Assembly (NCBI GenBank): GCA_021819245.1
Contig: JAKARI010000005.1
Coordinates: forward strand, 11,376-75,375
DNA length: 64,000 nucleotides
Source of the DNA: Pseudomonadota bacterium
Lineage (GTDB): Bacteria; Pseudomonadota; Gammaproteobacteria; Acidiferrobacterales; Acidiferrobacteraceae
Direction of reading: 5' to 3'
Positions 987-5,308 of the stretch are shown here, piece by piece; the stretch's first letter is position 1; each line of letters starts with the position of its first letter. A program made the position numbers and the translations under genes. The notes beneath the pieces were generated by a model. That model searched no databases. It was not told where the DNA came from and was given only the letters and a program-made list of their open reading frames with translations.

Positions 987-1193
987 ATGAAGATATCGAC
1001 CTACGCCCTTCACACCGTCATGGCGCTCGCGGCCACCATGGTCCTGACAACCACGGCTTACGCCGGCATGAAGAATGCCTGCGGTTCCCAGGGGAGCACG
1101 ATGAAGAAATCCGGCTGCGGCTCCAAGGGCAGCACCATGAAGAGCTCCTACGACGCGAAGAAAGACAAAATGAAGAACGCCTGCGGGTCTTAA
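987..1193 (+). CDS. Small exported Cys/Gly/Ser/Met/Lys repeat protein
   Basis: A 68-residue protein. Residues 1-27 form a clear signal peptide ending in Ala-Tyr-Ala-Gly. The roughly 41-residue mature part is low-complexity: the unit Cys-Gly-Ser-(Gln/Lys)-Gly-Ser-Thr-Met-Lys occurs twice, and Met-Lys-Asn-Ala-Cys-Gly-Ser occurs at both ends. It has three spaced cysteines, several methionines and many lysines. AAGGAG lies eight bases before the ATG. Function is unknown; the composition could suit metal or redox work in the periplasm, especially beside merTP and a multiheme cytochrome, but that is inference. A terminator-like hairpin follows within 35 bases. Confidence 0.7.
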   Translation: MKISTYALHTVMALAATMVLTTTAYAGMKNACGSQGSTMKKSGCGSKGSTMKSSYDAKKDKMKNACGS

Positions 1194-1219: not shown

Positions 1220-2455
1220 ATGATACCCCGCCTGCGCCCCTTCGGCCGGGCGGGTGTTTTTGGGGCCACGCACCGCAGGGCAAAAGCGGCCCTGTGGCTT
1301 TTCGTGCTCCTCCTCCTCAACCCGCTCACCCCGGCCCAGGCCTGGCCGACCACGGCCTTTCTCAGCCACTACTGGCGCAGACCCGTTCCGATCGGGGGCG
1401 CGAGCCCGCCGCACTGGCCGGCCTTCGAGACCGCGCTCTCGGCGCGCGCCTGCGGGCAGTGCCATATTGAACAGTACCGTCAATGGCGCACAAGCCGCCA
1501 CGCCCTGGCGATGGGGCCTGGGGTCATGGGACAGCTCGCACAGGCCGGGCTCGGCCACTGGGCGTTCGTGCGCGGCTGCCTGTCCTGTCATGCCCCGGCG
1601 CGGGCCCAATGGCATCAGGTGCGCGCCGCGCTTGCGGGCCGCCCGCTCGCCGCCCTGGCCCGGCAAGGGGTCACCTGCGCCGACTGCCATGTGCGCCACT
1701 ACCGGCGCTTCGGGCCGCCGCTTGCGCCGTATCTGGCCGACGGGCGCGTCATACACGGCGGCTTTACCCCAAGCCGCGACTTTACGCGCAGCCGGTTTTG
1801 CATAAGCTGCCATCAATTCCATCGCAATGGCGCGCGCCTCGACGGCTCGCTTCTGGAAAACGTCTACGGGGAATGGCGCAAGAGCCGCTACGCGCGCGCG
1901 GGCGTGACCTGCCAGAGCTGCCACATGCCGGATGGGCGTCATGACTTCTATGGGATCCACAACCCACGCTTCGTGCGCCGTGCGCTCACCATCCGTTTCC
2001 GGGCCGGCCCCGCGCCCTCGGGCCGCGCCATCACCGCCCGTCTCGTCATCACGAATTCCGGGGTCGGCCACGATTTCCCGACCTATACGACCCCCGAGGT
2101 GGTCGCCGCCCTATGGCAACGATGCGCCACCCACATATGCCGCGGCACCCTCCGGCGCCTCGTGATCGGCCGGCGCATCAGTCTTAACCTCAAGCACCAA
2201 TACTTCGACACCCGCATCAAGGCGGGCCAATCGCGCACCCTATCCTACGACGTCGCACGCGCGCCCAAGGCCACGGGGCTCGCGGCGCGCATCACGGTCT
2301 ACCCGGACGCGGCCTATGTGCGCTTCTTTCGCGCCTACCTCGTGCGCTACCGGCTCACCGCGGCCGAGCGCCACACCATCCGCCAGGCGCTTTTGCGCGA
2401 TGAGCACTCGAGCTACGTCTTGTGGCAGGCCAACCGCCCCGTACCGCGGCGGTAA
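1220..2455 (+). CDS. Exported pentaheme c-type cytochrome (cytochrome c554-like family)
   Basis: A 411-residue protein with a long Arg-rich N-terminus and a hydrophobic signal segment (residues 24-40, ending Pro-Ala-Gln-Ala). Five CxxCH haem motifs lie at about residues 78, 120, 153, 194 and 231, after which comes a haem-free beta-rich C-terminal domain with a Gly-His-Asp-Phe-Pro-Thr element. This layout is typical of periplasmic multiheme cytochromes related to cytochrome c554. The role is electron transfer; donor and acceptor are unknown. The ATG at 1220 has only a weak ribosome site and lies within a terminator-like hairpin, so expression may depend on readthrough from the small protein upstream. 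No better in-frame start exists before the signal segment. Confidence 0.8.
   Translation: MIPRLRPFGRAGVFGATHRRAKAALWLFVLLLLNPLTPAQAWPTTAFLSHYWRRPVPIGGASPPHWPAFETALSARACGQCHIEQYRQWRTSRHALAMGPGVMGQLAQAGLGHWAFVRGCLSCHAPARAQWHQVRAALAGRPLAALARQGVTCADCHVRHYRRFGPPLAPYLADGRVIHGGFTPSRDFTRSRFCISCHQFHRNGARLDGSLLENVYGEWRKSRYARAGVTCQSCHMPDGRHDFYGIHNPRFVRRALTIRFRAGPAPSGRAITARLVITNSGVGHDFPTYTTPEVVAALWQRCATHICRGTLRRLVIGRRISLNLKHQYFDTRIKAGQSRTLSYDVARAPKATGLAARITVYPDAAYVRFFRAYLVRYRLTAAERHTIRQALLRDEHSSYVLWQANRPVPRR
1226..1261 (+). terminator. Rho-independent terminator-like hairpin overlapping the next gene start
   Basis: A CCCGCC arm (1227-1232) pairs with GGCGGG (1249-1254), with further pairing inside, and is followed by TGTTTTT. 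It sits 33 bases after the small repeat-protein stop and inside the first codons of the multiheme cytochrome, whose ATG is at 1220. Confidence 0.6.
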
Positions 2456-2490
2456 TCGAGGCCCGGTACGGGCATGGCGCAAACCCCCTT

Positions 2491-2841
2491 TTAGGCGCGC
2501 TTGCCCCGCACCAGGGTCCCGGGGAAGCCCGCGTCCTTGACGGCCTTCAAAAACACCGCCGGGTTGGTGCGGCCGATGATGTATTTCACGGTGACATTTT
2601 GTGTCGACTCGTCGACCCCCACGCCCATCACGCCCTTGAGCCGGATGAGCGACATATAGACCGTGGTCGCGCACGAATGATTGCTGCAGGTCATGCCCGG
2701 GATATGAATGACGGCCTGCGCAAACCGCATGGCGACGGTCTGCACAGAGCCCTGGGTCGTGACCGCGGCCATGGCCGGACCCAGGACGGCTGCCGAGACG
2801 AGGGTCGCGGCCAAAACGACAGAGCGTGTGATATTTTTCAT
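2491..2841 (-). CDS. merP: MerP-like periplasmic heavy-metal-binding protein
   Basis: A 116-residue protein with a signal peptide (residues 1-26, ending Pro-Ala-Met-Ala-Ala), then one HMA domain. The metal loop reads Gly-Met-Thr-Cys-Ser-Asn-His-Ser-Cys, so the two cysteines are separated by four residues with a His between them, instead of the usual CxxC of MerP. In mer systems MerP hands Hg(II) to the membrane transporter MerT. It lies nine bases downstream of merT, with AGGAG eight bases before the ATG, so the two are cotranscribed. The altered spacing leaves metal specificity open (Hg, Cu or another soft metal). Confidence 0.75.
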   Translation of the reverse strand: MKNITRSVVLAATLVSAAVLGPAMAAVTTQGSVQTVAMRFAQAVIHIPGMTCSNHSCATTVYMSLIRLKGVMGVGVDESTQNVTVKYIIGRTNPAVFLKAVKDAGFPGTLVRGKRA

Positions 2842-2850
2842 GATGATCTC

Positions 2851-3240
2851 CTAAGGTGTCGTGGGAATCGACGGGGCGATAAGCGCGGGGAGCACATAGG
2901 GCGCGGCCAGGGCGACGGCCACCAGCACCGTGCCCAACCACAGCCACAACGCGGAATGCCCGCCTCGCGGCGGACAGGCACAGGCGGCCTCGGCGCGCCG
3001 CCCCCGCCAGTAGCGCCAATGCGCGAATGCGAGCAAGACTATGGTCATGGCGATGAGCCACGGGCGCAGCGGGTCAAGCACCGTGAGATCGGCGACCCAT
3101 GCCCCACCGATACCGGCGACCACCAGGACAAGCGGCCCGACGCAGCACACCGAGGCCAAAAAGCCGGTGACCACCGCCGCCCACAGCCCGCGCCGCCCGG
3201 CGGCCACGGGCCCGCCTCTTGTGTCCTTGTCCACCCTCAT
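2851..3240 (-). CDS. merT: MerT-like mercuric ion transport protein
   Basis: A 129-residue inner-membrane protein with three predicted membrane segments. The first carries the vicinal pair Ser-Val-Cys-Cys-Val-Gly-Pro (Cys32-Cys33) diagnostic of MerT. A second cysteine pair (Ala-Cys-Ala-Cys-Pro) lies in the loop after the second helix, as expected for handing metal to the cytoplasm. It is first in a two-gene merT-merP operon beneath a MerR-type operator. No mercuric reductase gene is nearby, so import here must connect to an enzyme encoded elsewhere, or the pair serves another metal. Confidence 0.8.
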   Translation of the reverse strand: MRVDKDTRGGPVAAGRRGLWAAVVTGFLASVCCVGPLVLVVAGIGGAWVADLTVLDPLRPWLIAMTIVLLAFAHWRYWRGRRAEAACACPPRGGHSALWLWLGTVLVAVALAAPYVLPALIAPSIPTTP

Positions 3241-3269
3241 AGCTATACCCTGCGACCGATCATGATATG

Positions 3270-3301
3270 AGCCTAGACCACGTACCTAAGTACGGTGTCA
3301 A
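3270..3301 (-). promoter_or_regulatory. MerR-family operator/promoter for merTP
   Basis: Read on the minus strand there is a TTGACA -35 (3296-3301), a 20-bp spacer and a TAGGCT -10 (3270-3275). The spacer holds the dyad CGTAC-CTAA-GTACG (3281-3294), with the same half-sites as classical mer operators. The over-long spacer with a central dyad is the hallmark of MerR-type activation by DNA untwisting. No merR gene is adjacent; the next gene upstream is the unrelated GH15 gene on the other strand. Confidence 0.85.
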
Positions 3302-3469
3302 GGCCGGCATCGCCTGGCGCGTGCGGCGATCACGCCCAGAAGGCTTGCCCCGGACACGGCAAAAAGGCTATACCGGACAGGCGCCTGCCAGGCGGCGGGC
3401 GACCTGTTTCCGCAAACGTGCTGTAAGGCGCAGGCCTTGCGCCGCACACCCGCCCTGCAAGGAGGTGCC

Positions 3470-5308
3470 ATGCCCGCCCCGCAATACGACAGCCTGCCCA
3501 TCGAAGACTACGCGCTCATCGGCAACACCATCACCGGGGCCCTGGTCGGCAAAAACGGCTCGATCGACTGGTTTTGCGCCCCGCGCCTGGATAGCGCCGC
3601 GTGCCTGGCGGCACTGCTCGGCAGCCACGACAACGGCCACTGGCAGATCGCGCCTGTCGGCGGCGCGCAGGCGGTGCGCCGCCGCTATCGCGGCGATACG
3701 CTGATCCTCGAGACCGAGTTCGAGACGCCCACGGGCTTGGCGCGCCTGACCGACTTCATGGTCATAAACGGCCATGACTCCGAGGAACACTGTCACCTCG
3801 TGCGCATCGTCGAGGGGCTGCGCGGCACGGTCGACATGGAGATGGCACTCGCCATCCGCTTCTACTACGGGTCCATGGTCCCGTGGGTCCGGCGGGTGGG
3901 TACGGCCCGGCTTGCGGTCGCGGGCCCCGACACCCTCTATCTTACGGCCACCGTCCCCCTTCACGGTAAGGACCAGACGACCCGCGCCCGATTCCGGCTC
4001 ACAGCCGGCGCGCGCGAGACATTCCAGATGAGCTACCAACCGGCGCATCATACCGCCTACACACCCCCGGAACCACTCGCGGCGCTCGCCCATACCGAGC
4101 AGTGGTGGCGCGCGTGGGCGGCGAAGAACCGCTATCAGGGCCCCTGGCGTGATGCCGTCATGCGTTCGCTCATCACCTTGAAGGCCCTCACCTGCCGCCC
4201 CACCGGGGCGATCGCTGCGGCCCTGACCACCTCGCTGCCGGAGGCGTTCGGCGGCACGCGCAACTGGGATTACCGCTACTGCTGGCTGCGTGACGCCACC
4301 TTCACCCTGTGGTCGATGCTCGCCACAGGCTACACCGAAGAGGCCGTCGCCTGGCGCGAATGGCTCATGCGCGCCGTGGCCGGCGATCCCGCCGATCTTC
4401 AGATCGTCTATGGCGTCAACGGCGAGCGCTGGATCGGGGAGCGGGAGATCCCCTGGCTTTGCGGCTACGAGGGGGCCAAACCCGTGCGCGTCGGCAATGC
4501 CGCCTCCGATCAGTTTCAGATCGACGTCTATGGCGAGCTCATGGACTCCCTGCATCTGGCGCGCAGCGCGGGCCTCCATCCGCAACCCCATGCCTGGAAG
4601 ATCCAGTGCGCGATCATGACGTTTCTCGAGTCGGCCTGGCAGCTCCCGGATGACGGCATCTGGGAGATGCGCGGGGGGCGCCGGCACTTCACCCATTCCA
4701 AGGTCATGGCCTGGGTCGCCTTCGACCGGGCGGTCAAGGATGCCACGCGCCATGGGCTTACGGCGCCGGTGGCGCGCTGGGCCAAGATCCGCGATACCAT
4801 TCATGCCGACGTCTGCGCGCAGGGCTTTAGCGCCGCCCGGAACAGCTTCACGCAGTATTACGGCAGCGAGGCCCTGGATGCGAGCCTGCTCATGATGGCC
4901 CTGGTCGGGTTTCTGCCGGCGACCGACCCGCGCGTCATCGGGACCGTGCGCGCCATCGAGTCCGATCTCATAGACGGCGGCCTCGTCCTGCGCTATCGCC
5001 CGCAGGAATCGGGTGATGGCCTGCCGGGCCGCGAGGGCGTGTTTCTGCCCTGCTCGTTTTGGCTGGTCGACAATCTCGTCTTGCAGGGACGGCATGATGA
5101 GGCGCATGCGCTCTTTGCGCGTCTTGCGGGCCTATGCAACGATGTGGGCCTGTTGTCGGAGGAATACGATCCTGCGGCCCGGCGGCTTTGCGGCAACTTC
5201 CCGCAGGCCTTCACCCACGTCGCCCTCGTCAACTCCGCGCGCACCCTCGCAGGCGCCGGACCGGCTACCGACTATTACCCCCCGGCGGGCGCCAGCGCGC
5301 GACGATAG
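3470..5308 (+). CDS. Glycoside hydrolase family 15 protein (trehalase/glucoamylase-like)
   Basis: A 612-residue cytoplasmic protein without a signal peptide. It has the two-part GH15 layout: an N-terminal beta-sandwich starting with Pro-Ile-Glu-Asp-Tyr-Ala-Leu-Ile-Gly-Asn, and a C-terminal (alpha/alpha)6 catalytic domain with Asn-Trp-Asp-Tyr-Arg-Tyr-Cys-Trp-Leu-Arg-Asp around residue 265. A conserved Ser-Glu-Glu-Tyr-Asp tract and a Phe-Pro-Gln-Ala-Phe-Thr-His tract lie near the end. Relatives act on trehalose or alpha-glucans; the substrate cannot be read from sequence. AAGGAGGT four bases before the ATG at 3470 fixes the start. The 3' end overlaps the convergent methyltransferase gene by 34 bases. 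Confidence 0.85.
   Translation: MPAPQYDSLPIEDYALIGNTITGALVGKNGSIDWFCAPRLDSAACLAALLGSHDNGHWQIAPVGGAQAVRRRYRGDTLILETEFETPTGLARLTDFMVINGHDSEEHCHLVRIVEGLRGTVDMEMALAIRFYYGSMVPWVRRVGTARLAVAGPDTLYLTATVPLHGKDQTTRARFRLTAGARETFQMSYQPAHHTAYTPPEPLAALAHTEQWWRAWAAKNRYQGPWRDAVMRSLITLKALTCRPTGAIAAALTTSLPEAFGGTRNWDYRYCWLRDATFTLWSMLATGYTEEAVAWREWLMRAVAGDPADLQIVYGVNGERWIGEREIPWLCGYEGAKPVRVGNAASDQFQIDVYGELMDSLHLARSAGLHPQPHAWKIQCAIMTFLESAWQLPDDGIWEMRGGRRHFTHSKVMAWVAFDRAVKDATRHGLTAPVARWAKIRDTIHADVCAQGFSAARNSFTQYYGSEALDASLLMMALVGFLPATDPRVIGTVRAIESDLIDGGLVLRYRPQESGDGLPGREGVFLPCSFWLVDNLVLQGRHDEAHALFARLAGLCNDVGLLSEEYDPAARRLCGNFPQAFTHVALVNSARTLAGAGPATDYYPPAGASARR

Follow-up and report, generated by a model that had tools for sequence, protein, structure and literature searches.

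The window analyzed here, a 64,000-nucleotide stretch of DNA, very probably carries the import genes of a mercury-resistance regulon that is dispersed over the genome and would be run in trans by a single MerR. Three loci, a shared operator, promoter spacers of 19–20 bp, the MerR cysteines, and conservation through the genus can be read from the genomes; MerR binding, induction by mercury, and transport are what we infer from them. In the mechanism we propose, one MerR, encoded alone by the cytochrome-c-maturation genes, would sit on the over-spaced promoters of merTP and merA, repressing both without Hg(II) and untwisting both when Hg(II) is bound. MerP and MerT would carry Hg(II) into the cytoplasm, and an unlinked MerA would there reduce it to Hg(0).

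The merTP module

The module and its two neighbors are laid out in the window as follows.

1220–2455, plus strand: multiheme cytochrome c; convergent neighbor, outside the mer system
2491–2841, minus strand: merP-like gene, 116 aa (Pfam PF00403 HMA, 31.4 bits; cut-off 24.8)
2851–3240, minus strand: merT, 129 aa (Pfam PF02411 MerT, 79.8 bits; cut-off 32.9)
3270–3301, minus strand: mer-type promoter/operator (TTGACA 3301–3296, 20-bp spacer, TAGGCT 3275–3270)
3470–5308, plus strand: GH15 glycosidase (trehalase-like); divergent neighbor, marks the place of merTP

An earlier reading made from the sequence only had placed a merTP module with its minus-strand promoter at 2491–3301, between a divergent GH15 enzyme and a convergent multiheme cytochrome. 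The Pfam matches to MerT and HMA, both over cut-off, bear out the module, and the family scan found both neighbors as described. MerT is the inner-membrane Hg(II) importer; the copy here, which has a VCCVGP motif and a CAC loop (by eye), is the one MerT detected in the whole genome. Its best NCBIfam model is MerT PRK13751 at 85.9 bits, under the equivalog cut-off of 150, and the merP-like product scores 44.2 bits for the NCBIfam MerP model, under the cut-off of 92.55. Since both proteins pass the Pfam cut-offs and miss the NCBIfam equivalog cut-offs, we regard them as divergent members of their families.

The merP-like product has a signal peptide (by eye) followed by an HMA domain, and its motif is C-x4-C (GMTCSNHSC) instead of the classical GMTCxxC or C-x2-C. 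Both motif cysteines are invariant, and the two extra residues between them are kept, in all 11 sequences from the genus. An AlphaFold model shows the beta-alpha-beta-beta-alpha-beta HMA fold, with block means of 89–94 in the core and a lower-confidence mean of 76 for the block that holds the motif; its best PDB match is a MerP, 1osd from Ralstonia metallidurans. A search with two peptide patterns for C-x4-C MerP outside the genus returned eight loci, all in genomes of the genus. The same spacing occurs in the MerP on contig C128 of G017, a genome of another genus, and is absent from that genome's classical MerP copy. A plasmid origin of merP was considered and set aside, as one weak partial match was found among 72,556 plasmid records.

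The operator and its distribution

The promoter described in the earlier reading, with its 20-bp spacer and CGTAC-N4-GTACG dyad, has all of its elements in place, the dyad lying at 3281–3294 within the spacer. An over-long spacer is reported to keep RNA polymerase off until metal-bound MerR distorts the DNA (PMC9909328, PMC11049809), and the sites upstream of merT and merA have the elements that predicted MerR-type control by DNA distortion would use. Their −10 hexamers are weak (TAGGCT before merT, CAGACT before merA), and a sigma-70 scan restricted to spacers of 16–18 bp found no promoter within 2400–3480. The scan of the same region gave a single terminator-like match, close to chance.

By itself the dyad is weak evidence: GTAC-N4-GTAC is seen once in the window, against 0.18 expected, and at least once in 16 of 100 shuffles. 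The operator sequence TTGACNNCGTACNNNNGTAC has exactly two exact matches genome-wide, upstream of merT in the window and upstream of merA (C52:2058–2077); a genome-wide check for more copies of the dyad, proposed in the earlier reading, thus yields one other exact operator copy. When mismatches are admitted in the same genome, there are 83 matches at up to three mismatches versus 236 for a backward control, and three versus three at up to one. Because such raw counts do not exceed the control, the strength of the operator lies in the location of its exact sites and in their conservation. At up to one mismatch it is present at 11 of 11 merT loci and 14 of 14 merA loci of the genus. The 29 matches at this threshold in the 14 genus genomes comprise 25 distinct mer sites, three reverse readings of the same dyads, and one site elsewhere, so that 25 of 26 distinct sites are mer sites; the backward control has 18 matches in these genomes. 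The 12 unlinked merA promoters have spacers of 20 bp, the 11 merT promoters spacers of 19–20 bp (with the −10 taken as the best hexamer having A2 and T6, and one opposite-strand reading omitted).

merA and merR on other contigs

The earlier observation that neither merR nor merA lies in the flanking kilobases holds for the whole of contig C10 (98 kb), which contains the window and on which no MerR-family gene and no MerA was found. The genome (2.25 Mb in 54 contigs, 91% complete), which the earlier reading could not see, has both: a search located merA on C52 and a mercury-type merR on C43. The single MerA over cut-off scores 546.4 bits for the NCBIfam MerA model (cut-off 454.45) and has an N-terminal HMA domain, the GGTCVNIGC motif, and a C-terminal SCCAG cysteine pair. 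Reduction elsewhere in the genome, one of the two options that the reading had offered, is what the genome suggests, since the operator found at merT also precedes merA on C52; the other, a different use for the imported metal, is not needed. The case that would have made the module a simple duplicate, namely the same merTP within a full mer operon at another place, did not occur, and no second MerT was found.

Contig C52 is 7 kb long, and its first 383 bases match the end of a different contig at 98.7% identity. A degenerate 130-bp MerR remnant (80% identity) occupies 1905–2033, and the merA operator starts at 2058. Upstream of merA stands an MFS gene at eight of 12 unlinked merA loci, including that of G001, the source of the query; in the present genome the MFS gene is on contig C14, apart from merA, and none was seen near merA of G010, G011b, and G012 in the stretch of sequence examined. 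We also observed four related MerR-like sequences (C41 11960–12478, C14 3833–4302, C52 1–383, and C52 1905–2033), among them one MerR-like gene, a copy that has diverged, a 3′ end that is nearly identical, and the 130-bp remnant; they lie at the ends of contigs and immediately ahead of the merA operator. The proteins end in a C-x2-C...C-x2-C tail. Judged by reading frames only, C41 and C47 hold two hydrogenase-4/formate-hydrogenlyase-like clusters.

Five MerR-family genes pass the Pfam cut-off in this genome. The stand-alone MerR on C43 is best matched by TIGR02051 MerR at 132.2 bits, which is under the NCBIfam equivalog cut-off of 150.85 and still the top-scoring family, the zinc, copper, and cadmium/lead models reaching at most 100.9 bits. 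It has cysteines at what we take to be the places of Tn501 Cys82, Cys117, and Cys126, positioned without an aligned Tn501 sequence. All three are kept in every one of the 11 lone MerRs aligned from the genus; the alignment covers 15 of 23 loci and omits five linked ones, the G017 locus on C48, and the lone merR loci of G004 and G006, so that two of the genus's 13 lone MerRs are outside it. The third cysteine is described as distinguishing regulators of +2 from those of +1 metals, and is also found in ZntR and CadR (PMC9909328). As ZntR and CadR share it, the assignment of the C43 protein to mercury rests on its profile score and on the company of the operator. It is a probable mercury sensor, and the sole one of the five that resembles a mercury regulator. 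Hence the trans-acting regulator postulated in the earlier reading is suggested by the genome, in which a mercury-type merR on C43 is joined by the same operator at merT and merA.

The lone merR sits beside cytochrome-c-maturation genes (the names CcmE, DsbE, MFS, PheT, and hydrogenase used here are readings of frames, not family scans) and is present in 13 of 14 genus genomes, the exception being G003. At each of the 13 loci, at least one of four genes that neighbor merR in G001 is adjacent; these four, which served as the queries, are read as CcmE, DsbE, a divergently oriented gene, and a member of an oxidoreductase cluster. We sought the mer dyad in the 400 bases that precede merR at these 13 loci, and no site stood out. 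The best sites have two to three dyad and four to six operator mismatches, about the same as mononucleotide shuffles (means of 2.1–2.3 and 5.0–5.2); at one locus (L070) the operator is one mismatch better than the shuffle mean. As no mer site was found there, the autorepression that comes with the divergent layout would appear to have been lost.

Conservation in the genus and family

We searched the 18 genomes listed for the family, of which 14 belong to the genus of the window. MerT was found in 12 of the 18 (11 of 14 in the genus) and MerA, at E ≤ 1e-100, in 16 of the 18 (13 of 14 in the genus, at 14 loci). The full three-way split, with merT, a distant merA, and a lone merR, is present in ten of 14 genus genomes. 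In G001, a single 3.4-Mb contig, the genes lie at 0.915 Mb (merT), 1.786 Mb (merA), and 2.497 Mb (merR), that is, with gaps of 871 kb from merT to merA and 710 kb from merA to merR. In G013 a single contig carries merT and merA at a distance of 365 kb, and merR is on another; in the other eight three-way genomes the loci are on different contigs, three in the genome of the window. The hallmark of a mer operon, merR and the structural genes in one cluster, is therefore not seen in these genomes. Linked merR-merA clusters do occur in G003 and G005, and G011 (85% complete) has two merA genes and a lone merR, with merT not found. G007 has merR alone of the mer genes. Its lone mercury-type merR (99% complete genome; C7 4564–4938, locus L129) has the three cysteines, and a search of this genome for merT, merA, and the mer operator found none.

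The place of merTP is fixed as well, with one exception. Among the 11 merT-bearing genomes of the genus, ten have GH15 on the merT side, and the cytochrome is on the merP side in nine of these ten, the contig of G009 ending there; the eleventh genome, G003, has merTP at a different place. In G003, G005, and G007, the cytochrome and GH15 frames share a strand and are direct neighbors, separated by 63 to 213 bp that hold no merTP, so that merTP was either inserted into this gap or cleanly lost from it. The cytochrome itself is present in 16 of 18 family genomes, including five of the six without merT. Since the cytochrome–GH15 pair exists without merTP, the cytochrome is independent of the module. 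Upstream of the cytochrome in the window, 987–1193 (plus strand) encodes a secreted-looking peptide of 68 aa with repeated NACGS-type motifs and no Pfam or NCBIfam match; similar peptides adjoin the cytochrome in several relatives.

Origin of the arrangement

Two genomes keep the structural genes together. On contig C128 of G017, merT, merP, and merA stand behind one perfect operator; no merR was found on this contig, a lone merR being on C48, and the genome has a classical linked mer cluster as well. In G003 (L130 8195–9755, contig C103), merA follows directly after merT-merP in pieces and in different frames, which may be sequencing error, as the coverage on record is ~2.9x. In unrooted trees to which other Gammaproteobacteria were added, MerA of the split loci groups with that of the G017 operon (0.993; 26 of 28 rows, omitting G011b and G147), and split MerT, together with MerT of G017 and G003, is separated from the rest (1.000; 20 of 26 rows, omitting G245, G147, G073, G173, G138, and G072). 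As G017 and G003 keep merT-merP-merA together, the splitting of an operon is indicated. The simplest story would be that a merTPA operator-driven operon without an adjacent merR later broke, each part now having a copy of the operator.

A different history seems doubtful to us, if conceivable. The lone merR may have been a resident chromosomal regulator, fixed by the cytochrome-c-maturation genes before merTP came and freed of mer-type autoregulation, which operator-carrying mer modules then joined; the merR of G007 would in that case regulate something else.

A sample of the class (232 genomes, 47 MerT loci over cut-off) places the split in a wider setting. Within 10 kb of merT, both merA and merR are found at 24 loci, merR only at eight, merA only at seven, and neither at eight, the unlinked classes being upper bounds, as six MerA candidates were scored per genome and the MerR threshold was strict (1e-34). 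One of the eight loci with neither, in G173, has a MerA-like frame adjacent, and G173 also has a linked cluster; the only others of the eight with all three genes in the genome are G000 and G008, which belong to this genus. The seven merA-only loci have a perfect operator in five cases and one with two mismatches in two, and as these loci carry the operator, it may be common for MerR to act from afar. In G049, a merR-merT locus and a separate merA locus both have a perfect operator. In a 2012 survey, 195 mer operons, or 71.7%, contained merR (PMC3466566).

Alternative explanations

It is quite unlikely that merTP and merA answer to another MerR-family regulator, either the CueR/ZntR-like protein on C21 or the hydrogenase-adjacent, HspR-like MerR. 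The genome does offer candidates among its five MerR-family genes, and the 130-bp remnant just ahead of the merA operator on C52 is of the HspR-like kind. The C21 protein, however, adjoins a copper ATPase, has alanine at the Cys82 place, and shows no clear preference among the zinc, copper, and mercury models (118.3, 117.0, and 115.9 bits), whereas the MerR equivalog model gives the C41 and C14 proteins only 33.0 and 30.2 bits and is clearly the best match of the C43 protein. The gene on C13 has no NCBIfam match at 1e-10. We consider it very improbable that merTP imports another metal, such as copper or silver, or is a functionless remnant. The scores of MerT and MerP under the NCBIfam cut-offs and the C-x4-C motif could be taken that way; against this, no stop interrupts any of the 11 MerT matches of the genus, all 11 merP frames are open, the module keeps its place in ten of 11 genomes, and its operator is common to merTP and merA.

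The earlier reading speculated that the neighboring multiheme cytochrome serves as the reductant for mercury brought in by merTP; we find this scarcely credible. Its position beside merTP invites the idea, and iron-dependent mercury volatilization with cytochrome c oxidase has been reported in A. ferrooxidans (PMC1142338). A true merA is nevertheless present in the genome, and the presence of the cytochrome in most merT-less family genomes, together with the empty gap in G003, G005, and G007, speaks against such a role, as does our not finding it in G017, which has merT-merP-merA. The dispersed regulon under one MerR thus stays the explanation that we favor.

Comparison with known systems

Like the mer operons of Tn501 and Tn21, the system described here has TTGAC, a dyad inside an over-long spacer, and homologues of MerT, MerP, MerA, and MerR. 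By eye, 12 of 16 bases equal those of the Tn501 site as cited, which is of the CCGTAC-N4-GTACGG type (PMC11049809). Unlike in Tn501 and Tn21, the genes form three unlinked loci, merR is away from the operator, and no dyad was found in the 400 bases upstream of merR; compared with Tn501, the MerP motif is C-x4-C and the spacer is 20 bp instead of 19 bp. In Thiobacillus (Acidithiobacillus) ferrooxidans, also an acidophile, merR is reportedly spaced apart from the structural genes, to go by the title of Inoue 1991. The present system resembles it in having merR away from the structural genes and differs in that merTP and merA are separate as well, whereas that title sets only merR apart.

The closest experimental precedent for action in trans is Synechocystis, where merR (slr0701) is far from merA (slr1849) and MerR drives merA in trans, a placing that the paper terms unique to cyanobacteria (PMC6741143). 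The distance between merR and merA is a shared feature; merT and merP are absent from the Synechocystis system, and slr0701 also controls an element upstream of itself, of a kind that was not found at the lone merR of the present genus. Acidithiobacillus ferrooxidans MC2.2 has scattered mer genes, with merTP operons and merA at separate places (PMC9449456), but these are many copies, some partial, in one strain, in contrast to the single-copy, genus-wide loci seen here. Among the listed matches and passages from the open-access literature, none describes three mer loci conserved across a genus in which merTP is a unit with its own operator, and the main text of the paper on Af. thiooxydans ZJ does not mention mercury, merR, or mercuric. 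Split mer systems are thus already known; relative to the literature cited, what is new is that a form with three separate loci is conserved throughout a genus and that merTP bears its own operator.

Implications

Our results suggest that a textbook operon can split into separate loci and stay one regulon, provided that each piece keeps its own operator. How the dosage of MerR is set without a divergent promoter becomes a directly testable question. Surveys that judge merTP or merA by their neighbors will miscall such loci as orphans.
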